Source: Prevotella sp.
Lineage (GTDB): Bacteria; Bacteroidota; Bacteroidia; Bacteroidales; Bacteroidaceae
Length of the DNA stretch: 50,006 nucleotides
Direction: 5' to 3'
NCBI GenBank assembly: GCA_017449495.1
Contig: JAFTFO010000025.1
Coordinates: 1 to 50,006 of the forward strand
In this document: positions 11,923-50,006 of the stretch, in pieces
Numbering within the stretch: the stretch's first letter is position 1
How the letters are laid out: the number at the start of each line of letters is the position of its first letter
Translations under genes and position numbers: made by a program
The notes under the pieces: generated by a model
Told to the model about the DNA's origin: nothing
Databases searched by the model: none
What the model saw: the letters and a program-made list of their open reading frames with translations, nothing else

Positions 11923-11952
11923 AATCTGTATCAATCATGGTGATAGCCCTTA

Positions 11953-12040
11953 CTCCGAGAAACCTGCCACCTTTCTCCGAGAAACCAGCCACCTTTCTCC
12001 GAGAAACCAGCCACCTTTCTCCCAGTTTGCAGCCACCTTT
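11953..12040. repeat. 22-bp tandem repeat, 4 copies
   Basis: Four head-to-tail units starting at 11953, 11975, 11997 and 12019. Each begins CTCC and ends GCCACCTTT. Units 2 and 3 are identical, unit 1 has one change, and unit 4 is more diverged in its middle. The 22-bp period rules out a conserved coding frame. Confidence 0.9.
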
Positions 12041-12110
12041 CTCCCGCCGGCATCACCCACGACACGAGAGATTATTAAAAGGATTAGTAAGGATTCTTCG
12101 GGATTAATTG

Positions 12111-17263: not shown

Positions 17264-17324
17264 TAAACTGTAAACCGTAAACTGTAAACCGTAAACCGTA
17301 AACTGTAAACCGTAAACTGTAAAC
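17264..17324. repeat. Heptamer array, about 9 x TAAACYG
   Basis: Eight full and one partial 7-bp units (TAAACTG or TAAACCG) fill nearly the whole gap between the M16 gene and metK. The same unit is present on the other side of the M16 gene. Confidence 0.92.
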
Positions 17325-38258: not shown

Positions 38259-39458
38259 ATGGATCTGCTCGAACAAATATCTCCACAGTTTATACTGTTT
38301 TTCATCCTCTACGGCGTGACAGGAGCGGTGCCGCTCATCGCGGCCCTCTACCTGCTGCTGCGCCGGGGCAATGCCATCGCACCCGGCATCACGCCGCCGG
38401 TGCGGCTGCGCCGATGGGCGGCGTCGTTCTTTGCCATGGCAGCACTGGGACATGTGTGGTGGTATTTACTCTACGTCTATTCCCGCGACCTTATGTCTAT
38501 GGACGGCGTGGTACATTCGGCTGGCTATGTGGCAGTGGCAGTGCTCGACTGCGTGACGCTGCTCACCACCCTCGCCGGCACGTTGCTCTCCATGCTTCAG
38601 GACCGTCGCCGGCCCATGTGGCCCGTCTTTGTGGCCATGCTGCCATTCGTGGCACTCGGGGGCGTGCTCATGGTCCATCCCAGTCAGCAGGCCATGCTCA
38701 TCGCCGAGGTGTACGTCCTGTTGCTCTACGCACTCTTCACCGTCTATATGGTGTTTGCCGTCAGACGGTACGGGCGGTGGCTGAACGACAACTACGCCGA
38801 CCTGGAGAACAAGAAGGTATGGCTATGCCAGGTGGTGACGCTCGCCTGCCTGTTGCTGTTCATCCTCTACACCCTCGTTGACATCGACACCACCCTCTTA
38901 ATCTTCCTTTTGCATTTCACCGAACTCGTGCTGTTCGGACTCTTACTCTGGCGTGTGGAGACACTGCCGCAGCTGGAAGATAACAGCCTTACCCCCAACC
39001 CCTCTCCAAAGAGCGAGGGGAGTGAATACCCTCAAGGACAAGAACGAACGGAAGAACTATCTACTCCCCTCGCCCTTCGGAGAGGGGGCGGGGGTCAGGC
39101 TCCTATCAATATCGACCTCGCCCAAATCGAACGGCTGCTGGCAGAGCACTGCGTGGGCACACAACTTTACCTTCAGCACGACCTGACCGTTCACCAGCTT
39201 GCTCTCGCAATTGGCACCAACCGCTTGTATCTCAACCAGTATTTCTCCCGTCAGGGCATCACTTACAACACCTATATCAACAACCTGCGCATCAACCACT
39301 TCATCAGCCGCTACCAAGAAGCCGCCCAGGCCGGGCAGCCCTTCACCGCCCAGCAACTGGCCAGCGAGAGTGGTTACCGCAGCTACAGCACCTTCAGCCT
39401 CGCTTTCAAGCAGCGCACAGGTCAGAGCGTGACCGCTTGGATGCGCGACTCGGATTGA
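38259..39458 (+). CDS. Membrane-anchored AraC-family transcriptional regulator (copy 1)
   Basis: 399 residues. Six or seven hydrophobic segments fill residues 1-235, ending with the FGLLLWRVETLPQLE signature shared by the other copies. A 40-residue linker follows, encoded by an intergenic-type inverted repeat. The C-terminal AraC domain (about 290-395) has two helix-turn-helix units, VHQLALAIGTNRLYLNQYFS and AQQLASESGYRSYSTFSLAFKQ. It presumably senses a signal in the membrane and binds DNA while tethered. It is the third gene after lemA-DUF2207, with 25 bp between. The GC-rich codons differ little from its neighbours. Confidence 0.9.
   Translation: MDLLEQISPQFILFFILYGVTGAVPLIAALYLLLRRGNAIAPGITPPVRLRRWAASFFAMAALGHVWWYLLYVYSRDLMSMDGVVHSAGYVAVAVLDCVTLLTTLAGTLLSMLQDRRRPMWPVFVAMLPFVALGGVLMVHPSQQAMLIAEVYVLLLYALFTVYMVFAVRRYGRWLNDNYADLENKKVWLCQVVTLACLLLFILYTLVDIDTTLLIFLLHFTELVLFGLLLWRVETLPQLEDNSLTPNPSPKSEGSEYPQGQERTEELSTPLALRRGGGGQAPINIDLAQIERLLAEHCVGTQLYLQHDLTVHQLALAIGTNRLYLNQYFSRQGITYNTYINNLRINHFISRYQEAAQAGQPFTAQQLASESGYRSYSTFSLAFKQRTGQSVTAWMRDSD
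38986..39100. repeat. Inverted repeat (two 38-nt arms) inside the AraC copy 1 gene
   Basis: Arms 38986-39023 and 39063-39100 match at 33 of 38 positions when one is complemented, with 39 bp between. The arms are read in frame as SLTPNPSPKSEGS and STPLALRRGGGGQAP. TPNPSPKGEG-type peptides are a known by-product of an intergenic repeat that is frequent in Bacteroidota. Confidence 0.88.
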
Positions 39459-39479
39459 CTTTCGAAATCAGTTGTCGAG

Positions 39480-39517
39480 TTTCAAAATCTGCAAAAATTG
39501 TTTCAAAATCTGCAAAA
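39480..39517 (+). promoter_or_regulatory. 17-4-17 direct repeat, probable AraC-type operator
   Basis: TTTCAAAATCTGCAAAA occurs twice without a mismatch (39480-39496 and 39501-39517), 4 bp apart. The second copy ends 47 bp before the -7 box at 39565. The spacing fits two half-sites on one DNA face. Confidence 0.65.
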
Positions 39518-39564
39518 TCTTTCAAGGAGGGCGATTTGGGCTAACAACCTTGGAGGATTTTGCG

Positions 39565-39572
39565 TATCTTTG
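39565..39572 (+). promoter_or_regulatory. -7 box of the domain-only membrane protein operon
   Basis: TATCTTTG, 24 bp before the ATG. No TTG lies at the usual distance; the nearest upstream TTTG is 26 bp away. The promoter may need an activator. Confidence 0.55.
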
Positions 39573-39596
39573 CAGAGCAATTTGAAACAGTAGATT

Positions 39597-40316
39597 ATGT
39601 ACGAACTTCAAGGACTGAGTGATTCATTTTTCCTGATGCTCTACGGCGCGGCGGCATGGTTCGCGCTGTTGGCGGCGGTGTACCTGCTCTTCGGGCGGGG
39701 CAACGCGGTGGCGGGCGACGAGGTGGTGCCGAACACGTTGCTACGGCGGTGGACGGCGACGTTCATGATGGCCGTGTTCATGAGCCACGTGTGGTGGGCC
39801 GTGCCTGAAGCGTCCGACGACCGGCTGGTGCGCAACATCGTGTGCATCGCGCTCGACCGGCTGACCTTCGTGCCGCTAATGATGTGCGTGCTACTGCGGA
39901 TACTGCAAGACCGTCGGCGATCGCTCTGGCCCGTGTGGGCAGCAGTGGCACCGGTAGCCGTGCTGGCCGTGGTGTGCCTCGCCCTGCGCAGCGACGTGTT
40001 CGAGCCAGCGGTGGAGTGGTACATGGCAGTGGTCGCCGTAGGCTTCCTCGTCTACTACGTTCGGGCCGTGCGGCAGTACGGCCACTGGCTGCTCGACAAC
40101 TACGCCGACCTGGAGCGCAAGGAGGTGTGGCAGAGCCTGCTGCTGCTGGCTCTCATCCTGTTCGTCCACGTGGCCTACTCCACCAACGGCGGTGCGCTCG
40201 TGACGGAATATCTGGCGCAGGTGAACACGATGGTCATCATCGCCTTCCTCCTTTGGCGCGTGGAGACGTTGCAGGAACTGGAGGCCGAGGAGGATGAAAA
40301 CAATGAAAACTTATAG
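39597..40316 (+). CDS. Membrane protein homologous to the AraC copies' sensor domain, no DNA-binding domain
   Basis: 239 residues, about six hydrophobic segments. It matches the N-terminal part of the two membrane AraC regulators: LYGAAAWFALLAAVYLLFGR, LRRWTATF, HVWW, LRILQDRRRSLWP, YGHWLLDNYADLERKEVW and FLLWRVETLQELE all have close counterparts in them. It stops just after that last motif, where the others have their linker and helix-turn-helix domain. It may be a dominant-negative partner, a decoy sensor or a decayed gene; the intact frame and promoter favour function. It leads a three-gene run. Confidence 0.8.
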   Translation: MYELQGLSDSFFLMLYGAAAWFALLAAVYLLFGRGNAVAGDEVVPNTLLRRWTATFMMAVFMSHVWWAVPEASDDRLVRNIVCIALDRLTFVPLMMCVLLRILQDRRRSLWPVWAAVAPVAVLAVVCLALRSDVFEPAVEWYMAVVAVGFLVYYVRAVRQYGHWLLDNYADLERKEVWQSLLLLALILFVHVAYSTNGGALVTEYLAQVNTMVIIAFLLWRVETLQELEAEEDENNENL

Positions 40317-40330
40317 ACTGCTAAATACTT

Positions 40331-40681
40331 ATGGACCAAGAAAAGACTTATACTATCGACGTCGATGAGAACTATCTTGAATTTATCCGTCGCGTCATCG
40401 CCGACCAACCTGACCGCGAGCCGTTGCGCATCGTGGAACAACTGGTGGAGATTGTCGGTGGAGAAGTGAAGGACCGCCTCTACGACCTGAGTGCCGTTGC
40501 CTCAGAGAAGCGCCTCACCGTGACGCTCCGTCATGGCGGGAAACGGATTGACGGCCGGCTGATACTGATCATGGGCGACAATACCGACCATGTGGACTAT
40601 TATCTCGACGGCGACGAGTGGGTGCTCACCATCCGTCGCGACGTACCCCCACCCTTCGTCACCCGCCATAGCTACAAATAA
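40331..40681 (+). CDS. Hypothetical cytosolic protein
   Basis: 116 residues, not recognised. No signal or membrane segment. It is rich in Asp, Glu and Arg, with two likely helices (YLEFIRRVIADQ, PLRIVEQLVEIVGG) and then beta-like strands (KRLTVTLRHGGKRIDGRLILIMG, EWVLTIRRD). It starts 14 bp after the previous stop and ends 16 bp before the next gene, so it is in the middle of an operon of three. Confidence 0.7.
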   Translation: MDQEKTYTIDVDENYLEFIRRVIADQPDREPLRIVEQLVEIVGGEVKDRLYDLSAVASEKRLTVTLRHGGKRIDGRLILIMGDNTDHVDYYLDGDEWVLTIRRDVPPPFVTRHSYK

Positions 40682-40697
40682 CAAAATTCTAACTGTT

Positions 40698-41261
40698 ATG
40701 CAGACAAGATTTAAGAAGAATGCCAAGATTTTCGACATCGTGATTACCGCCGTCGGCGGCACGCTGTCGGTGGGCGTGATGCTCTACGCCGTTTTCCACT
40801 TCGGACTGTACGATGTCTGGCCCGAACTCGTGCTCAACCTATTCTACATCGCCGGTCTGGTGATGATCTGGATGTACTTCTTCAACTCCCCGCGCATCAC
40901 CACCCAGCAGTTCAACTACTGGTGCTCCATCTCGGTGGGTGTGACGGTGCTGCTGCGCGACATCCTCTTCCCGCCGCCCCTGGCCTACTACGGCCTGCAC
41001 CTGTCGTGCCTCACCCTGTCGGTGTTGCTGCTCTGCATGCTCACCTTCTTCTATGCCCGCAGGGATTGGAAGAGCTACTCAAAAGGCAATCTGTGGGCCA
41101 TCTGCATCGTCGACATGCTCATTGCCACACTCTACAACCTCGACATCTACCTGGAGCCCATTAACGAGTACACCGACTATCTGCTCGTCGAGATCTGGAT
41201 CCGTCCCACCATCACCTACGGCCTCGTGGCCTGTTTCGTGACGGAAACGGAGAAGAGTTAG
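40698..41261 (+). CDS. Hypothetical six-helix membrane protein
   Basis: 187 residues from the ATG at 40698; the open frame runs further up but overlaps the preceding gene. Hydrophobic segments lie near residues 15-32, 38-57, 68-85, 92-112, 128-147 and 165-180. No known motif is seen. It shares no clear sequence with the AraC sensor domain. The stop is 4 bp from the stop of the converging AraC copy 2 gene, without a hairpin between. Confidence 0.72.
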   Translation: MQTRFKKNAKIFDIVITAVGGTLSVGVMLYAVFHFGLYDVWPELVLNLFYIAGLVMIWMYFFNSPRITTQQFNYWCSISVGVTVLLRDILFPPPLAYYGLHLSCLTLSVLLLCMLTFFYARRDWKSYSKGNLWAICIVDMLIATLYNLDIYLEPINEYTDYLLVEIWIRPTITYGLVACFVTETEKS

Positions 41262-41265
41262 AGAA

Positions 41266-42438
41266 TCATGCCTCCAAGACACTTACCCAAGAGGCAATGC
41301 TCTGGCCCATGCGCTGCTTGAAGGCGGTGGCGAAGGTGCTGTAACTGCGGAAGCCGCTCTCGAGGGCCAGTTGCTGGGCGGTAAAGGGACGATGGGTGGC
41401 GACGGCTTCGCGGCAGAGACTGACGAAGTGGCGAATGCGGAGGTCGTGGATGTAGTTGTAGTAGGTAGTGCCCTGGCTGGCGAAATACTGGCCGAGATAG
41501 TTGCGGTTGACGCCGACGGCTGCCGAGAGTTGCGACAGGGTCAGATCTTGCTGCAGGTAGAGCCTCGTGCCGACACATTCCGTTTCCAACCGTTGGCCGA
41601 TACGGGACAATACATCAGCCCTGGCTTTTCTCCGACGAGAGGTGGGGGGGGTAACATTTTTTCCCGCTGGGTTCTCGCCCTGGATGTCAATGTCAGCTTC
41701 TTGTTCAGGTTCCGGTTCCGGCAGGAGGTTCTCCTCTTGCTCCGAGGCTTCCTCCAACAGCGGCAACGTCTCCACACGCCACACAAGGAGGACGAACAGC
41801 GCGAAGCTGCTCAGTTGGACGAGCAGGAACGACAGCAAGTCGTCAGCAAACCCGTAGTTGACCAGGAGGAGCAGCACCACGATGACCAGCGTATGGCTGA
41901 CCCACACCTCCTTATGCTCCAGGTCAGCGTAGTGGTCGCGCAACCACCGCTGGTATTGCCTGACGGCGATAATCATATATACGGTAAAGACGGCATAGAG
42001 CGACAGCATATAGACGACGATGGGGGGCGCGAAATTGATGTCGGGCCGAGCCATCTGCAGTGCTCCGAGTACCACGAAGGGCACGGTGGCGGCGACGAAA
42101 GGCCTGAGCGATCGGTGGCGGTCCTGAAGCATGGAAAGCATGGTACCGAAGAGGGTGATGAGCAACCCCGCACCGTCGAGTACGGCGAGCAGCGTAAAGA
42201 GCCAGGATTGCTCGGCGAAGCCGCTGGCGTAGGCCAGTAGCCAGTAGACATGGCCAACGGCTGCGAAGCCGAAGAATGCTGCCGCCCACCGTCGCAGCCG
42301 CACGGGCGGCGTGATGCCGGGCGCGATGACGTTCACCTTACTCAACAGCAGATAGAGGCACAGCAGCAGCGCCGTCGCCGCTGCCCCGCCGTAGAGCGTG
42401 AAGTACAGCATTATCTGTGCAGAAGTTAGTTCGTGCAT
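41266..42438 (-). CDS. Membrane-anchored AraC-family transcriptional regulator (copy 2)
   Basis: About 390 residues from the ATG at 42438; an in-frame ATG at 42477 lies inside the promoter. The membrane domain (1-215) has the shared motifs ITPPVRLRRWAA, MLSMLQDRHRSLRP, QRWLRDHYADLEHKEVW and LVWRVETLPLLE. An acidic linker (EPEPEQEADID) and a Pro/Arg stretch precede the AraC domain (about 285-388) with LSQLSAAVGVNRNYLGQYFA and AQQLALESGFRSYSTFATAFKQ. An uninterrupted G8 run (41644-41651) lies in the linker. It is divergent from the RND efflux operon and the best candidate to control it. Confidence 0.9.
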   Translation of the reverse strand: MHELTSAQIMLYFTLYGGAAATALLLCLYLLLSKVNVIAPGITPPVRLRRWAAAFFGFAAVGHVYWLLAYASGFAEQSWLFTLLAVLDGAGLLITLFGTMLSMLQDRHRSLRPFVAATVPFVVLGALQMARPDINFAPPIVVYMLSLYAVFTVYMIIAVRQYQRWLRDHYADLEHKEVWVSHTLVIVVLLLLVNYGFADDLLSFLLVQLSSFALFVLLVWRVETLPLLEEASEQEENLLPEPEPEQEADIDIQGENPAGKNVTPPTSRRRKARADVLSRIGQRLETECVGTRLYLQQDLTLSQLSAAVGVNRNYLGQYFASQGTTYYNYIHDLRIRHFVSLCREAVATHRPFTAQQLALESGFRSYSTFATAFKQRMGQSIASWVSVLEA

Positions 42439-42474
42439 ATCCTTTATATTTATTTCTCGCAGCCTTTTTGGCTG

Positions 42475-42482
42475 CAAAGTTA
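42475..42482 (-). promoter_or_regulatory. -7 box of AraC copy 2
   Basis: Minus-strand TAACTTTG, 36 bp before the start. No TTG at 20 bp upstream. Confidence 0.55.
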
Positions 42483-42540
42483 CAGCTTTTTTTCAATTAT
42501 CAGCCCTTTAACGCTTAAAAAATAAATTTCAACGCTCAGC

Positions 42541-42591
42541 TAATGCAATTCCGACCCGGGATATGCAAGACTCTCGTTTAATGCAATTTCG
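42541..42591. promoter_or_regulatory. TAATGCAATTYCG direct repeat in the divergent region
   Basis: TAATGCAATTCCG (42541-42553) and TAATGCAATTTCG (42579-42591) lie 38 bp apart, with a third TGCAA at 42564-42568 between them. The 330-bp gap between AraC copy 2 and the RND operon holds these, the 17-4-17 repeat and the two promoters, and no gene. Confidence 0.55.
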
Positions 42592-42600
42592 CCTCGCGAC

Positions 42601-42638
42601 TGACGGCTAAAGCAAAAAAAGTGACGGCTAAAGCAAAA
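42601..42638 (+). promoter_or_regulatory. 17-4-17 direct repeat, probable operator of the RND operon
   Basis: TGACGGCTAAAGCAAAA occurs twice without a mismatch (42601-42617 and 42622-42638), 4 bp apart. The second copy ends 47 bp before the -7 box at 42686, exactly as at 39480-39565. Confidence 0.7.
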
Positions 42639-42685
42639 TCTTTCGCGGCGGCCGATTCGGATGCGGCGGAATGGGGATTTTTGTG

Positions 42686-42693
42686 TATCTTTG
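42686..42693 (+). promoter_or_regulatory. -7 box of the RND efflux operon
   Basis: TATCTTTG, 76 bp before the first ATG. No -33 TTG at 20 bp, which suggests activator dependence. Confidence 0.6.
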
Positions 42694-42769
42694 AAGGCAA
42701 ATTTAGTAACTAAAACTTTTTATTAATACAAATTAGAAATCATATCAATAAAAATAATAGAGTAAAACA

Positions 42770-43885
42770 ATGAAAAAGAAATCAATTAAATGCGCTTTGA
42801 TGCTCGGGATCATCACAGGGTTGGTGGCGTGTAACTTAAACATGCCCAAGGAGACACAGTCATCATTTGAGACAATGACAGTGGAGAAATCTGACATTGA
42901 ACTGCCCTACAAGTTCAGTGCAAGGATGAAAGGTCAGAATGATGTGACCGTAACGCCGCAGGTCAGTGGTCAGTTGATGAAGATTTGCGTGGCTGAGGGT
43001 CAACAAGTGAAGAAGGGGCAGACGCTCTTTATTATCGACTCCCGTAACGCCCAACTGGAATTGGAGGCAGCACAGGCCAACCTGCAGGCCGCCTTAGCTC
43101 AGGAGAACTCCGCCAAACTGGAGTACGAGTCGAATAAGAACCTGTTTGAGAAGAAAATTGTGAGCAGTTATATGCTGAACAATTCGGAAAACGCCTTCAA
43201 ACAGGCTCAGGCTGCAGTGGCTCAGGCCCGTGCATCGGTGAACAGCGCGAAGGTCAACTTAGGATTCTGTACTATCACGGCTACTGTATCGGGAGTCATT
43301 GGAGAGATTCCCGTGCGTATCGGCGACCAGGTGTCGCCTATGACACAACTGACTATGCTGAGCGGCAACACGACGATGTACGCCGAGTTCTCAGTAACGG
43401 AGGCCATTGTCGAGGCCATGGTGAAGGAGGGCATGAATGCAACCGATGTGGAGAAGTATATTGCCAGTCTGCCCGAAGCAACGTTTGTCATGAAGAACGG
43501 CACCGAGTATCCTCACAAAGGTCGCGTCGTCAGCCTGACGGGTGTTGTCAATTCGACAACAGGCTCATTGACCGCCAAGGTGTCGTTCCCCAATCCTGAA
43601 GGTCATCTGTATTCTGGCATACAGGGTTCGATAGTCATGTCATTTGCTGAAGAAGGCGTGATGGTCATTCCCCAAAACGCTGTAGTGCGCCTGCAAGATA
43701 AGTCACTGGTCTATAAGGTGAAGGCTGACAGCACGGCTACCGCTATAGACGTGACGACACAGGATACCGGTAACGGTAAGGACTTCATCATAACCAGCGG
43801 CCTGAACGTGGGTGACAAGATTGTGACCACAGGTGCCAATAACGTGACAGAGGGACAGAGGGTGCTGTTTCCAGAGGAGAATTGA
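42770..43885 (+). CDS. RND efflux periplasmic adaptor (AcrA/HlyD-like lipoprotein)
   Basis: 371 residues. A lipoprotein signal ends at Cys21 (ITGLVAC). The lipoyl-like halves are TVTPQVSGQLMKICVAEGQQV and ITATVSGVIGEIPVRIGDQV, with a long alpha-hairpin (LELEAAQANLQAALAQENS to ARASVNSAKVN) between them and beta-barrel and membrane-proximal domains after. It links the inner-membrane pump to the outer-membrane channel. It is the first gene of the operon. Its stop codon lies in the heptamer array before the pump gene. Confidence 0.95.
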   Translation: MKKKSIKCALMLGIITGLVACNLNMPKETQSSFETMTVEKSDIELPYKFSARMKGQNDVTVTPQVSGQLMKICVAEGQQVKKGQTLFIIDSRNAQLELEAAQANLQAALAQENSAKLEYESNKNLFEKKIVSSYMLNNSENAFKQAQAAVAQARASVNSAKVNLGFCTITATVSGVIGEIPVRIGDQVSPMTQLTMLSGNTTMYAEFSVTEAIVEAMVKEGMNATDVEKYIASLPEATFVMKNGTEYPHKGRVVSLTGVVNSTTGSLTAKVSFPNPEGHLYSGIQGSIVMSFAEEGVMVIPQNAVVRLQDKSLVYKVKADSTATAIDVTTQDTGNGKDFIITSGLNVGDKIVTTGANNVTEGQRVLFPEEN

Positions 43886-43907
43886 GAATTGATAATTGAC
43901 AATTGAC
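43880..43907. repeat. Heptamer array, 4 x AATTGAB, at the adaptor-pump junction
   Basis: AATTGAG, AATTGAT, AATTGAC, AATTGAC in 7-bp register. It contains the adaptor stop codon and ends one base before the pump ATG at 43909, where a ribosome site would be expected. Confidence 0.88.
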
Positions 43908-43908
43908 A

Positions 43909-46900
43909 ATGAAGAACAATATCTTTATCAATAAATACGTGATGGCATGTGCCATCTCGATTGTGATAGCACTGGTGGGCTACATCTCGATGAGCACACT
44001 GCCAGTGGAGCAGTATCCCGACATCGCGCCGCCAACGGTGATGGTAACGACGAGTTACTCTGGCGCTGATGAGAACACGGTGATGAAGTCGGTCATCCAG
44101 CCGCTCGAAGAAGCTATCAATGGCGTGACGGACATGTCTTACATGACCTCCAAAGCCTCGTCGAACGGTGATGTGGAGATCAGTGTCTATTTCAAGCAGG
44201 GCGTTGATCCTGACTTAGCGGCGGTGAACGTTCAGAACCGCGTGACCCGCGCACAGGCCCTGCTGCCTGCCGACGTCAACAAGATTGGTGTGACCGTGGA
44301 GAAGCGTCAGAACAACATCCTGCAGATTTTCGCAGTGCGCAGTGCCGACGGCAAGTACGACGAGGACTTCGTCTCTAACTACGTCGACATCAATATCAAG
44401 CCACGCCTGATGCGTATCACCGGTGTGGGTAACGTGCAGAGCCTTGGTAACACTTATGCCCTGCGCCTCTGGCTGAAGCCCGACGTGATGGCACAGTACG
44501 GCCTGACCCCTAATGACATCTTCGCCGCCATCGGCGGACAGAGTTTCGTCTCGGCTGTGGGTTCCTTGGGCGAGAAGTCCGGCAATTCCTACCAATATAA
44601 TATGCAGTACAAGGGAACGCTGAAGACGGTTGAGGAGTTCAACGACATCGTGCTGCGCACCAGTGGCGGCGGTATGCTCCACCTGAGCGACGTGGCTGAA
44701 GTGAAGATTGGTGCCATGAGTTACAACTTCACCTCAAACATCCAGGACCGTCCGGGCGCCATGTTCATGGTGTTCCAGGCACCGGGAGCCAACGCCACTG
44801 AGGTGAACGCCCGCATCAACAAGACGTTTGAGGAGGTGAAGGCAACAATGCCGGCCGGACTGGAGTTCGTCACCCTGATGACCAGCGATGACTTCCTGTT
44901 CGCTGCCATCCACAATGTGGTGGAGACACTGGTCATCGCCATCATCCTCGTGGTGCTCGTGGTGTTCTTCTTCCTGCAGAACTTCAAGGCCACCATCATT
45001 CCCTCCATATCCATTATCGTATCATTGTTGGGTACCTTTGCCATCGTTTCATTGGCAGGCTTCTCGCTCAACATCCTGACGCTCTTCGCCCTCGTGCTGG
45101 CCATTGGTACGGTGGTCGACGATGCCATTGTGGTGGTAGAGGCTGTCATGGCGAAGATGGAGGGAGGTATCAGCGATGCCCGCGAGGCCACCCGTCAGGC
45201 GATGAACGAGGTGTCGGTAGCCGTGGTCTCGTGTACCTTGGTGTTTATGGCTGTGTTCATCCCCGTGACGTTCATGCCCGGCACCTCAGGTACCTTCTTC
45301 ACCCAGTTTGGTGTGACGATTGCCTCCAGCGTTGGCCTGTCGTGTGTCTCGGCCCTGACGCTCTGTCCCGCGCTCTGCGCCATCATGATGCGCGTGACGG
45401 AAGGCAAGAAGGAGGGTAAGGGTATTATCTACTACACGAAGAAAGCCTACAACGTCAGTTATAATGCCATCTACAACAAATACAGCCGGAGTGTCCAGAA
45501 GTTCATCAAGCGTCCCCTCATGGCTTGGACCCTTCTGGCCGTGGCTGCCGTGCTGCTTGTGTTCTTCATGAGAAGCCTGCCGTCAGGACTGGTGCCCCAG
45601 GAGGATCAGGGCGTATTCCTGGTTGACCTCAGTGCACCGGAGGGAACCACGCTGCAGCAGACCCGTGAGATCATGAAGCAGGTGGAGGAGAAGGTGAAGA
45701 AGATTCCCGAGATGGAGAGCTTCGCCCTTTGCTGTGGCTATGGTATGCTCTCGGGTGCCGGTTCCAACTTTGCCACATTGGTAGTCCGTCTGAAGAACTG
45801 GGAGGAGCGCCCGGGCATGAACCATCTGCTGACACTCGTCATGTATCGCTTCTACTTCGATTGTCAGGACATCAAGAACGTGCAGGTGACACCTTTTGAG
45901 ATGCCTCAGATTCCCGGCTACGGTACGAGCAACAGTGTAACGCTGGTCGTCGAGGATCCCTCTGATGGCAACCTGTCGGAGTTTGCCAAGCAAACCGAGC
46001 ATTTCCTGGCCAAATTGTCTGAGCAGCCGGAGATTGCCGCGGCTATGTCCACGTACTCTGAGCGGTTCCCGAAGTATCAGGTCGATGTCGATGCGGCCCA
46101 GTGTGACCGTGCCGGTGTGTCGCCGGCCGACGTACTCAATACGCTCGGTACTTTCTGCGGTGGCGCGTATATCGGCAACTTCAACCAGTTTGGTAAGGTC
46201 TATCGTATCATGGCTGCTGCCTCGCCCGAATATCGTCTCGACCCGTCGTCACTGCAGAACATCTTCGTACAGGTCGGTGACGGCAGGATGGCACCTATCG
46301 CTGAGTTTGTCTCGTTGAAGGAGATTGTCGGCCCTGCCAACATCGAGCACTTCAACCTATTCCAGAGCATCACCTGTTACATCCAAACCGGTAGTGGCTT
46401 TACCGAGGGTGATGCCCACAAGGCCATCGCCAAGGTGTTCAAGGAGGAGATGCCTGCTACAGCCTCCTACGAGTATAGTGGCATGTCGCGTGAGTTGGAG
46501 GAGGCTGCCGGGTCTAATGCCACCGCCTTCATCTACATCATCTGCGCTATCCTGATCTACCTCATCCTGGCCTCACTGTATAACTCTTGGTTCACACCGT
46601 GGGCTGTGCTCTTCAGCGTGCCTTTCGGACTGATGGGTGCCTTTGTGTTTGCCTATTTCGGCAATTTGCTGAGTCTGCCCGGCATGGACAACAACATCTA
46701 CCTACAGACAGGTGTCATCATGCTGATAGGTCTATTGGCGAAGACGGCCATCCTGATTACCGAGTTCGCCACAGAGCGCCGTGCCCAGGGGCTGAGCATC
46801 TATGATGCCGCCTTCGAGGCCTGTAAGGAGCGTCTGCGCCCCATTCTGATGACGGTGGCCACGATGATCATCGGTATGATTCCGCTCGTCATTGAGGGTG

Positions 46901-47076
46901 GTGCAGGTGCCAACGGTAACCGTGCCCTGGCTCTCGGCGTCATCGGCGGTATGAGCATCGGCACCATTGCCCTACTCTTCGTCGTGCCGGCCTTCTTCAT
47001 CGTGTTCCAGAAGCTGCACGAGAAGTATCAGGGTGCCCCGAAAATGAAAAGTGTTGAAGTAAAAACGGAGGAATAA
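43909..47076 (+). CDS. RND efflux inner-membrane transporter (AcrB/MexB-like)
   Basis: 1055 residues from the ATG at 43909. Twelve membrane helices and two large periplasmic loops are arranged as in hydrophobe/amphiphile efflux pumps. The proton-relay aspartates are Asp404-Asp405 in GTVVDDAIVVVEAV. The N-terminus (FINKYVMACAISIVIALVGYISM) and LPVEQYPDIAPP are characteristic. It exports drugs, bile salts or similar compounds by proton antiport, as a trimer. Substrates cannot be read from sequence. Confidence 0.97.
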   Translation: MKNNIFINKYVMACAISIVIALVGYISMSTLPVEQYPDIAPPTVMVTTSYSGADENTVMKSVIQPLEEAINGVTDMSYMTSKASSNGDVEISVYFKQGVDPDLAAVNVQNRVTRAQALLPADVNKIGVTVEKRQNNILQIFAVRSADGKYDEDFVSNYVDINIKPRLMRITGVGNVQSLGNTYALRLWLKPDVMAQYGLTPNDIFAAIGGQSFVSAVGSLGEKSGNSYQYNMQYKGTLKTVEEFNDIVLRTSGGGMLHLSDVAEVKIGAMSYNFTSNIQDRPGAMFMVFQAPGANATEVNARINKTFEEVKATMPAGLEFVTLMTSDDFLFAAIHNVVETLVIAIILVVLVVFFFLQNFKATIIPSISIIVSLLGTFAIVSLAGFSLNILTLFALVLAIGTVVDDAIVVVEAVMAKMEGGISDAREATRQAMNEVSVAVVSCTLVFMAVFIPVTFMPGTSGTFFTQFGVTIASSVGLSCVSALTLCPALCAIMMRVTEGKKEGKGIIYYTKKAYNVSYNAIYNKYSRSVQKFIKRPLMAWTLLAVAAVLLVFFMRSLPSGLVPQEDQGVFLVDLSAPEGTTLQQTREIMKQVEEKVKKIPEMESFALCCGYGMLSGAGSNFATLVVRLKNWEERPGMNHLLTLVMYRFYFDCQDIKNVQVTPFEMPQIPGYGTSNSVTLVVEDPSDGNLSEFAKQTEHFLAKLSEQPEIAAAMSTYSERFPKYQVDVDAAQCDRAGVSPADVLNTLGTFCGGAYIGNFNQFGKVYRIMAAASPEYRLDPSSLQNIFVQVGDGRMAPIAEFVSLKEIVGPANIEHFNLFQSITCYIQTGSGFTEGDAHKAIAKVFKEEMPATASYEYSGMSRELEEAAGSNATAFIYIICAILIYLILASLYNSWFTPWAVLFSVPFGLMGAFVFAYFGNLLSLPGMDNNIYLQTGVIMLIGLLAKTAILITEFATERRAQGLSIYDAAFEACKERLRPILMTVATMIIGMIPLVIEGGAGANGNRALALGVIGGMSIGTIALLFVVPAFFIVFQKLHEKYQGAPKMKSVEVKTEE

Positions 47077-47079
47077 ATC

Positions 47080-48501
47080 ATGAAAAGACTAAGCAATATC
47101 TTCGTCGCTGCAGCCGTGAGCCTGATGCTCACAGGCTGCGGTATATATAATAGGTACGCGCAAGAAACACCTACACCCGCCGATGTCTTTGGTACCGACG
47201 GGAACATTCAGGCAGCCACGGGCGAGACGTCCATGGCCCAGGTGTCATGGCGCAAGTTTTTCACCGACCCGCTGCTACAGCAACTCATTGAGCAGGTACT
47301 GGCCAACAACACCGACCTCAACTCCGCCCGCATTGCCGTGGAGAAGAGCGAAGCCGCACTGACGGCAGCCAAACTGGCCTACCTGCCCTCGCTCTACTTC
47401 GCACCTCAGGGCTCGCTATCCAGTTTCGACGGGAGTGCCGCCTCGAAGACCTATACTCTGCCGTTGCAACTGTCGATGGACATCGATGTGTTCGGTTCCA
47501 TCACCAACCAGAAGCGTGCGGCAAAGGCCGTGGTCCTGCAGGCCCAGATGCAGCAGCAGGCCATACGATCCAACCTCATATCGGTCACGGCCCAGCAGTA
47601 CCTGATGCTGCAGGTGCTCGACCTACAGTTGGAAATCCTTACTCAAACCGACAGCCTTTGGAACAAGTCGCTCGAGACCGAGCAGGCACTCTGGGAGAAC
47701 GGCAAGGCCTATAGCACCGCCGTCAATCAGATGGAGGCCTCCTACCTAAACGTGAAGACGCAGATGGCTGACACCCGCCGCAATATCCGAGCCGTCGAGA
47801 ACGCCATCTGCAAGTTGCTGGCCGTCAGCCCGCAGCACATCAACCGTCAGAAGTGGGGCACCTCCACCCTGCATCATGCCGAGGCTACGGGTGAGGTAGA
47901 AGAGCGCATGTTCAACACCAGGTACCTGCAGATCGGCGTGCCGGCACAGATGCTGGAGAACCGACCCGACATCCGCATGGCCAACCACGCCATGGAAGAG
48001 GCTTTCTACAACACGCAGGCGGCCCGTTCGGCCTTCTATCCCAGCATCACGCTTAGCGGCACTGCCGGATGGACCAATGATGCCGGCATCGTCGTCAATC
48101 CCGGCAAACTGCTGCTGAACGCCGTCGCCCAACTCACGCAGCCCATCTTCGCCCGTGGCAAGTTGATTGCCAACAAGAAGATAGCCACGCTCACCGAGGA
48201 GGACCTGCAGAAGAAGTACGTCCAGACGGTCATCAATGCCGGAAACGAGGTGAACGAGGCCTTGGCCGACTGCCTGACGGCTCGCGAGAAGCACACCTAC
48301 TACCAGCGCCAGGTGGAGGTGCTCGGTGAGGCATATTCCGGTACGCACGAACTGATGGACAACGGCAAAGCCAGTTACATCGAGGTGCTCACTGCCCAGG
48401 AGTCGCTGCTCAACGCACAACTCAGCCAAGCTATGAACATGTACAATGCATCCGAGGCCGTCATTGCCCTCTACATTGCCCTCGGAGGAGGCACCAAGTA
48501 G
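47080..48501 (+). CDS. RND efflux outer-membrane channel (TolC/NodT family lipoprotein)
   Basis: 473 residues, lipoprotein signal ending at Cys20 (SLMLTGC). Two outer-membrane efflux repeats (about residues 55-250 and 270-465) with long helices; DLNSARIAVEKSEAALTAAKLAYLPSL and ENRPDIRMANHAMEEAFYNTQAARSAFYPSI are the typical paired motifs. It forms the outer-membrane exit duct of the pump. Only 3 bp separate it from the transporter gene. Confidence 0.95.
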   Translation: MKRLSNIFVAAAVSLMLTGCGIYNRYAQETPTPADVFGTDGNIQAATGETSMAQVSWRKFFTDPLLQQLIEQVLANNTDLNSARIAVEKSEAALTAAKLAYLPSLYFAPQGSLSSFDGSAASKTYTLPLQLSMDIDVFGSITNQKRAAKAVVLQAQMQQQAIRSNLISVTAQQYLMLQVLDLQLEILTQTDSLWNKSLETEQALWENGKAYSTAVNQMEASYLNVKTQMADTRRNIRAVENAICKLLAVSPQHINRQKWGTSTLHHAEATGEVEERMFNTRYLQIGVPAQMLENRPDIRMANHAMEEAFYNTQAARSAFYPSITLSGTAGWTNDAGIVVNPGKLLLNAVAQLTQPIFARGKLIANKKIATLTEEDLQKKYVQTVINAGNEVNEALADCLTAREKHTYYQRQVEVLGEAYSGTHELMDNGKASYIEVLTAQESLLNAQLSQAMNMYNASEAVIALYIALGGGTK

Positions 48502-48538
48502 TATTGAGAATTGAACATTAATGAATAATAATAGCACA

Positions 48539-50006
48539 ATGAAAATCAGACATTATCTAACAATGATCGCCGTTGTCCTGACAGTTCAGGCTAACGCAGA
48601 AGATTATCGTGACATGAAACCCCTTACGCTGGAAACTCCGGAGATGAAGGCTGCGCTTGTGGAAACAAAGGATCTTCCACCCGCTACGATGAATCTGACG
48701 ACAACCGCCGACAAGTGGAAACCTGACTTTGACTTCTTCAAGTCGAAGACGAATCCAGGTGTCAAGCCCTACAAGTTCATGGACGACCTGACCTTCGTCG
48801 GCGTTCCTCTGTTCGTTGCAGGTTGGGCCGTCAAGGGCGACAAGGCCATGTTCCGCGTCAATGCCAAGGCCGACCAAGGCGGCAAGAAGAACACACAGTT
48901 GCTCACCGACTTCAAGACCGGCATCGACGACTATACGCAGTTCTTCGGCCCCGCCATGGTGGTCGGATTGAAACTGGGCGGCTACGAAGGCCGCAGCGAC
49001 TGGCCCCGTCTGTTAGCCAGTTCACTGTCATCGTATGCCATCATGGCTGCCTTCGTCAATGGCATCAAGTACACCGCCAAGGAGATGCGTCCTGACGGCA
49101 GTACCGCCAACTCATGGCCTTCGGGGCACACTGCCACCGCTTTCGTCGGTGCCTCGCTGCTCCACAAGGAGTATGGACTGACGCGCTCCCCCTGGTGGTC
49201 GGTGGCCGGCTACGGTGTGGCCACGGCAACGGGCGTGATGCGTGTGCTCAACAACCGCCACTGGATCAGCGACGTGATGTCGGGTGCCGGCATCGGTATC
49301 ATGTCCACCGAGTTGGGCTACGCCCTCTGCGACCTGATGTTCAAGCAGAAGGGACTGCTGCGGGGTGACCTGGTGCTGGACAGCGAGGATCCCTCCTTCT
49401 TCAGCATCTCCATGGGTCTTGGTCTGGGCAACAAGGACCTCGAGTTTGAGAGCTATGGTGAGAAGATCGGCCTCAAGTTCCGTGCCGCCACGGTGGTCGA
49501 TGCCGAGGGCGCCTACTTCTTTAACAAGTACGTGGGCGTGGGTGGCCGTCTCCGCGTCAGGGCACAGTCGGTCAAGGACTTCGGCGACTTTGCCGATATC
49601 GTGGCCGTCGAGGACTATTATGCCTGGCAGGGCCTGCAGCCTCACTACGAGGCAGCGTTCCCCGGTGACTTCACGGGTACCCCCGACCAGAACGAACTGA
49701 CCTTCCTGAACAAGATGGGCTATCGGATGGACTCGGAGAGTGCCTGGAATGACAACGCTCCCGTCACCAACAGTTACGGCATCGTGAAGAGCGACCACAT
49801 CACCGAGTTCACCGGTAGTGTCGGCGTCTATTTCAACCTGCCACTCAGCAGCCACTTCTCTTTGGGCACCAAGGCGCTCATCGGCCGTTCCATCACGCAG
49901 GACCTTGACATCGACGGCCACGCCGAGGGCAACATGAAGGACATCGCCTACACGATGACGCTCGACAATCGTCCGGGGCACAAGGATGCCTCTGGTGACC
50001 CCAACA
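48539..50006 (+). CDS. PAP2-family phosphatase with C-terminal beta-barrel-like region, 3' partial
   Basis: The frame is open to the window's right edge; 489 codons are visible. A signal peptide (MKIRHYLTMIAVVLTVQANA) is followed by a PAP2 domain whose motifs are all present: KYTAKEMRP (Lys177, Arg184), PSGH (194-197) and R235-x5-H241-x3-D245. PAP2 enzymes dephosphorylate lipid phosphates such as undecaprenyl diphosphate or lipid A phosphates. From about residue 280 the sequence turns into alternating, aromatic-rich strands (FFSISMGLGLGNKDLEF, VGVGGRLRVRAQ) like an outer-membrane barrel. It lies 37 bp after the efflux channel gene and may belong to the same transcript. Confidence 0.85.
   Translation, partial: MKIRHYLTMIAVVLTVQANAEDYRDMKPLTLETPEMKAALVETKDLPPATMNLTTTADKWKPDFDFFKSKTNPGVKPYKFMDDLTFVGVPLFVAGWAVKGDKAMFRVNAKADQGGKKNTQLLTDFKTGIDDYTQFFGPAMVVGLKLGGYEGRSDWPRLLASSLSSYAIMAAFVNGIKYTAKEMRPDGSTANSWPSGHTATAFVGASLLHKEYGLTRSPWWSVAGYGVATATGVMRVLNNRHWISDVMSGAGIGIMSTELGYALCDLMFKQKGLLRGDLVLDSEDPSFFSISMGLGLGNKDLEFESYGEKIGLKFRAATVVDAEGAYFFNKYVGVGGRLRVRAQSVKDFGDFADIVAVEDYYAWQGLQPHYEAAFPGDFTGTPDQNELTFLNKMGYRMDSESAWNDNAPVTNSYGIVKSDHITEFTGSVGVYFNLPLSSHFSLGTKALIGRSITQDLDIDGHAEGNMKDIAYTMTLDNRPGHKDASGDPN

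Follow-up and report, generated by a model that had tools for sequence, protein, structure and literature searches.

We analyzed a 50,006-nucleotide stretch of DNA from Prevotella sp. (contig JAFTFO010000025.1 of assembly GCA_017449495.1, positions 1 to 50,006), hereafter called the window. The window belongs to one contig (C35) of a 2.2-Mb genome with a completeness of 68%. Towards its end lie three genes that share a membrane domain, two small genes and an operon for a resistance-nodulation-division (RND) efflux pump (Table 1). Two of the three genes, MA1 and MA2, encode the membrane domain, with seven predicted transmembrane helices (7TM), followed by an AraC DNA-binding domain. The third gene, MB, encodes the membrane domain alone. 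Judging from the sequences, MA1 and MA2 are probably membrane-tethered one-component regulators that act on operators made of tandem boxes, with MB as their partner. The named relatives come mostly from Prevotella-type Bacteroidales of the rumen and other ruminant guts.

Table 1. Genes and predicted regulatory elements of the locus (positions in the window)
Feature	Position	Strand	Description
MA1	38259-39458	+	399 aa; 7TM domain (residues ~1-240), C-terminal AraC DNA-binding domain
Predicted MA1 operator	39477-39520	+	TTTCAAAATCTGCAAAA at 39480 and 39501, period 21 bp
Predicted -7 promoter element TATCTTTGCA	39565-39574	+	47 bp past last repeat of predicted MA1 operator
MB	39597-40316	+	239 aa; stand-alone 7TM domain without AraC
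S116	40331-40681	+	small protein without assigned function
S188	40698 (likely start)-41261	+	predicted six-helix (6TM) membrane protein
MA2	41266-42477	-	403 aa; second 7TM-AraC regulator, divergent from RND operon; start perhaps 42441
Predicted MA2 operator	42601-42638	+	TGACGGCTAAAGCAAAA at 42601 and 42622, period 21 bp
Possible extra half-sites, predicted MA2 operator region	42536 and 42576		
Predicted -7 element of RND operon TATCTTTGAA	42686-42695	+	47 bp past last repeat
MFP, RND periplasmic adaptor	42770-43885	+	RND_mfp above NCBIfam cut-off
RND permease, AcrB type	43903-47076	+	ACR_tran above Pfam cut-off
OMF, outer-membrane efflux protein	47080-48501	+	OEP above Pfam cut-off
PAP2-superfamily protein	48521-50005	+	extends beyond window end

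The membrane domain and its AraC-bearing regulators

The original prediction described a single membrane domain common to three genes, with AraC in two of them and none in the third, and both the open reading frames (ORFs) and the Pfam matches bear this out. The motifs listed as shared recur overall, with the correction that MA2 carries DHYADLE and LVWRVETL, not DNYADLE and LLWRVETL. It was also right that two small genes of unassigned family (S116 and S188, neither with a Pfam or NCBIfam match above cut-off) lie between the regulators, and that the RND operon facing them is complete: adaptor, permease and outer-membrane channel form a single gene run, with ACR_tran, OEP and RND_mfp all above cut-off.

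The membrane part of MA1 and MA2 is about 240 residues long, shows seven hydrophobic peaks and precedes the AraC domain, so that according to the hydropathy prediction it is joined to the DNA-binding domain within a single polypeptide. Lysine and arginine fall mostly on loops predicted to be inside, and hydropathy together with these counts suggests that both the MA proteins and MB are N-out and C-in. HTH_18 matched MA1 with 38.9 bits and MA2 with 38.8 bits (the Pfam cut-off is 33.6) and HTH_AraC matched as well. Both proteins thus have the two helix-turn-helix motifs of HTH_18/HTH_AraC type that characterize the AraC/XylS family. MB gave no AraC match in Pfam. Within its own genome, MA1 is 51% identical to MA2, 49% to a fourth copy on contig C2 and 40% to MB.

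The membrane domain gave no match above cut-off in Pfam or NCBIfam, and profile matches in the PDB were confined to the AraC part. In this respect the original prediction is supported. A survey of the literature on membrane AraC regulators, covering open-licence papers through partial listings, revealed no description of these proteins; they apparently constitute an undescribed regulator family of rumen Prevotella.

The membrane domain occurs in 13 of 60 genomes searched, its own included, all of one genus, and in at least 98 of 299 genomes of that genus (the genus list consists of the best 150 matches). In an order-wide search five of 198 genomes matched: its own, G399 and G409 (strongly), and G358 and G464 (distantly, with AraC). 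The match in G409 lies on a contig with the same genes as locus L120, carrying an MA-MB pair, and may reflect transfer or misbinning. Neighbourhoods of the relatives confirm the expected co-occurrence of these genes in related genomes. The 80 loci compared are the best 80 of at least 495 by similarity to MA1, and counts from them favour MA1-type loci.

Some peculiarities of these genes deserve mention. The linker between the membrane and AraC parts of MA1 contains an in-frame 50-nt inverted repeat (window 38979-39107, arms 82% complementary); similar-looking repeat peptides terminate reading frames in L055 and L248. At L048:8144-10399 a 7TM-AraC gene continues in frame into an exported-looking part, giving 752 aa in all, and directly precedes S188 and the pump.

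Predicted tandem-box operators and a covarying residue

AraC-bearing copies are separated from the following gene on the same strand by a median of 189 bp. These gaps share a motif that reached 1206 bits at width 28, versus 180 and 202 in two dinucleotide-shuffle runs (performed with fewer starts), and scores exceeded 12 in 58 of 70 non-redundant regions. The motif consists of boxes TTTCAAAATNNGCAAAA repeated in tandem every 21 bp, and a Bacteroidetes -7 promoter follows after about 46 bp. The promoter element TAnnTTTG is found within 90 bp past the operator in 40 of 52 cases (3.5 expected from mononucleotide shuffles), and 36 of 43 positions lie at a distance of 45-48 bp. Tandem direct repeats with a 21-bp period are also known from the I1-I2 sites of AraC.

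The window contains a single main-type site, in the gap from MA1 to MB; 100 shuffles gave 0 matches. The intergenic region shared by MA2 and the RND operon holds an exact TGACGGCTAAAGCAAAA repeat with the same period and promoter spacing as the family operator. We regard it as the predicted MA2 operator because of the exact 21-bp repeat, the promoter spacing and the GCTAATG boxes that resemble it on the divergent side of two MA2 relatives (L190 and L143). The fourth regulator (C2) has a variant of its own, TTTCAGAATTAACAAAA, present twice ahead of a 673-residue gene. Other tandem repeats of the window, at ~11948-12046 (22-bp period) and ~17264-17318 (21-bp period), differ from the operators in sequence.

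In a second operator type the half-box TTTCAAAAT is replaced by GTCAAAT. At one position of the second helix-turn-helix, Arg is present in 10/10 genes of the GTCAAAT type and in 0/68 of the TTTCAAAAT type, with the box classes set after earlier tables, including failing or misassigning patterns, had been seen. In total 127 genes were examined; the other 49 could not be classed clearly, belonged to another class or lacked a residue call. On the membrane-domain tree the Arg label requires 10 changes, and at least five changes are forced by supported branches. Either residue and site appear to have changed jointly several times, or the AraC domain and its site travel together; in both cases the protein is tied to the site.

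This covariation and the fixed promoter spacing make it very improbable that the direct repeats serve in processing or recombination and have nothing to do with the AraC proteins, an idea suggested by the further short tandem or inverted repeats in the window. The sites also track the regulators: allowing up to three mismatches, they were found in 10/10 genomes with the regulator family and in 0/16 without it, these 26 genomes being hand-picked by match or no match in the genus list, except that four negatives came from the 60-genome search.

The operators precede the promoter by a constant ~46 bp and do not overlap it, as is usual for activators. It is thus unlikely that the regulators are repressors, even if local repressors of efflux operons are common, e.g., BmeR5 of Bacteroides fragilis (PMC4790292).

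The stand-alone gene MB and its small neighbours

We built a quick tree of 156 membrane domains from 178 ORFs, leaving out duplicates and rows with fewer than ~190 profile positions. It has three main clades and two rows outside them. Clade I includes MA1 and MA2 among its 87 rows, three of which have no intact AraC ORF (contig ends or frameshifts); clade II has 29 rows, four of them consisting of the transmembrane domain only (TM-only). The MB clade combines 22 TM-only rows with 16 AraC-bearing ones. Its TM-only rows form subclades of eight (SH-aLRT 99) and 13 (SH-aLRT 91) members, plus one long-branched row, and the proteins stop no more than ~25 residues past WRVETLQEL or a near variant, without an AraC remnant. 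The ratio of nonsynonymous to synonymous substitution rates (dN/dS) of MB is 0.15-0.35 in five pairs, which means purifying selection.

The matches listed for the genus include 16 open frames of at most 277 residues, nine of them of MB type. In 9/9 of the latter an AraC-bearing membrane gene lies within 2.3 kb. S188 comes next behind the MB-type gene in seven of the nine: six have a gap of 16-48 bp, and S116 intervenes in the window. Two further short frames (G293:C28 and G074:C3) have an AraC-bearing partner within 1.3 kb; G280 is frameshifted ahead of the AraC part, and G282 and G096 are cut by a contig end. As a comparison, we took the 20 AraC-bearing genes with the next best scores to MB (14 in the MB clade and six chosen by score, outside the tree). 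In the stretches fetched none of the 20 has a second membrane-domain gene nearby; L255 and L256 among them are near-copies, and for several the sequence available on one side is short. The difference between 9/9 and 0/20 means that in the MB clade the sensor-only form has been seen only beside a DNA-binding partner. This linkage suggests that MB tunes the AraC-bearing regulators, as the original prediction supposed.

We also considered MB as a decaying, functionless paralogue from which the AraC domain has been lost. AraC-bearing genes are among its nearest relatives, and broken copies do exist: the AraC part is in another frame in L055 and L246, and three TM-only genes (L056, L245 and L247) have dissimilar C-terminal tails and no partner in sight. 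We nevertheless rejected decay as quite improbable in view of the two TM-only subclades, the uniform end point without an AraC remnant, the low dN/dS and the AraC-bearing partner beside all nine MB-type genes among the matches listed.

S188 is conserved, with 68-90% identity across 17 aligned relatives, and occurs in 76 of the 299 genus genomes. Its start was corrected: a longer ORF from 40590 overlaps S116, and the relatives begin at a Met equivalent to 40698. Hydropathy and Lys/Arg counts fit six helices with both ends inside. Detectable homology of S188 to the membrane domain was rejected, as a profile comparison gave a probability of only 0.2-0.3%. Sequence searches of the PDB with MB and S188 gave nothing useful. 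In G013, G014 and G018, S188 is present and the membrane domain has no match at E up to 1e-20 among the best 150 matches; a fragment of the domain sits at the end of a G013 contig, and G018 lacks operator sites. Directly behind S188 in L214, L225, L227 and L293 are proteins of ~2300-3900 residues with a GRPWLL-type leader, two of which run off the stretch.

Two of the 59 other genomes searched contain S116 homologues, and a further homologue is present in L250. In L250 and L119 they adjoin a putative LD-carboxypeptidase-like gene. The L250 homologue also stands beside an AraC-bearing relative of MB, and the same carboxypeptidase-like gene neighbours many such relatives.

MB and S188 might instead be accessory parts of the pump or of an envelope complex, outside the signalling apparatus. 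MB, S188 and the pump do form one same-strand run in L165 and L181, and S188 immediately precedes MFP in L218 and L219. We find this rather unlikely, since MFP is within 6 kb of only two of the nine MB-type genes among the matches listed, S188 and MFP are that close in only seven of the 49 genomes that have both, and MB has its homologues in the membrane domains of the regulators themselves.

Targets, the pump and the proposed mechanism

With a 44-bp matrix trained on 42 sites, we found 116 distinct sites in 2.33 Mb of fetched DNA, the training sites being counted again among them. The next gene is MB for 15 sites, S188 for 13, MFP for six, PAP2 and a regulator for two each, and S116 for one. 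Sixty sites precede other same-strand genes; a crude leader pattern marked 27 of these as exported, and inspection by eye added more. The next gene is opposite or far for nine sites and absent for five, and three sites are intragenic. A membrane-AraC gene is the upstream neighbour of 75 of the 116.

The pump lies downstream of a site in a same-strand run in L048, L160, L165, L172, L181 and L304, and in L107 a site precedes MFP with no regulator adjacent. The pump MFP (E up to 1e-130) occurs in 97 of the 299 genus genomes, and S188 and MFP occur together in 49, versus 24.7 expected (the genomes are related). A strict linkage of regulator and pump was rejected: a 7TM-AraC gene is nearby in three of 15 stretches with an MFP at least 61% identical, some of the others ending at a contig edge. 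The proposal that tethered AraC domains switch the pump is thus retained in part: it is favoured by the 21-bp direct repeat beside MA2 with the family promoter spacing, and must be restricted because the pump is not a general target. As far as predicted sites tell, the pump is one target among several, and its genes are usually found elsewhere.

A PAP2-superfamily gene adjoins the pump also in L051, L172, L221 and L304. In genome G316 (L293-L295) six sites are spread over 40 kb of a single contig; five are at a distance from the regulator, and several precede runs of exported-looking proteins. Unrelated exported proteins behind operators in L294, L295, L296, L040 and L045 have a near-identical leader, K-WM-LAAILICG---T-C, which by eye is more uniform than ordinary signal peptides.

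We propose the following mechanism. The 7TM sensor domain (N-out, C-in) would hold the AraC domain against the inner face of the membrane, where a dimer would bind two tandem 17-bp boxes, 21 bp apart in period and ~46 bp ahead of the -7 promoter, and most likely activate transcription. The MA1 operator would drive MB-S116-S188 and the variant MA2 operator the RND operon. MB most likely associates with an AraC-bearing partner in the membrane, where it would belong to the receptor or provide feedback; expressed from an MA-controlled promoter, it would close a feedback loop of positive or negative sign. The sensor domain may respond to envelope stress or an efflux substrate, as the original prediction supposed, and S188 would have a role as well.

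Several results weigh against this model. Twelve of the 70 regions behind AraC-bearing copies score 12 or less. A scan of 33 MFP genes, one of which was a duplicate, found a main-type operator directly upstream of only six, and the main matrix gives the MA2 operator before MFP a score of -15.3. L191, the tree sister of MA2, has no GCTAATG-type box in the stretch printed. The operator class is unclear for three of 13 Arg genes, and both box types occur in L173; if operator and AraC domain move as one cassette, there are fewer independent covariation events. Finally, TM-only genes are not always beside a partner: G175:C2 (L245) and G080:C122 (L247), which fall outside the MB clade, lack an AraC remnant as well as a partner within the 6 and 5 kb fetched, respectively, and L056 has neither in the stretch fetched (5-12 kb for the three loci).

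MA1 and MA2 resemble other AraC/XylS proteins in the C-terminal double helix-turn-helix (HTH_18, HTH_AraC) and in the predicted tandem direct-repeat operator with its 21-bp period. The usual sensor of that family is a cytoplasmic ligand-binding domain, whereas here it is a 7TM domain without a Pfam family. Two 7TM-AraC genes of other Bacteroidales (L211 and L212) also have a hydrophobic N-terminal part followed by AraC and a related NNYSNL motif; they match with E of only 3e-6 and 4e-5, at 23% identity over part of the protein. BmeR5 (TetR) and other local RND regulators of Bacteroidota likewise adjoin an RND operon. In contrast to them, the regulators described here are of membrane-tethered AraC type with a direct-repeat operator, and most predicted sites are not before pumps.

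Membrane one-component systems of the ToxR kind also join a membrane part to a DNA-binding domain in one protein. The ToxR family is characterized by an N-terminal winged-helix domain of ToxR/OmpR type, and TcpP-TcpH is a membrane regulator with a co-encoded membrane partner. The same arrangement is described for ToxR-ToxS. According to Pfam, the domain of MA1 and MA2 is of AraC type and C-terminal; since the winged helix is missing, the two would work like ToxR systems without being members of the family. They differ also in having seven predicted helices instead of one, and in that their partner MB is a homologue of the regulator's own membrane domain.

On a more tentative level, the locus may exemplify a two-gene one-component regulator, in which a 7TM-AraC subunit and a 7TM homologue without DNA-binding domain, expressed from the promoter that the former controls, form heteromers that adjust how strongly an envelope and efflux regulon responds; the recognition helix would co-evolve with the operator, allowing several such switches to operate in parallel in one cell without cross-talk.

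The family provides a natural test case for the cooperation of a membrane transcription factor with a sensor-only homologue, and also a set of naturally occurring variants in DNA specificity. Its predicted DNA address allows the targets of the family to be predicted in other genomes, among them efflux systems, PAP2 proteins and exported proteins.

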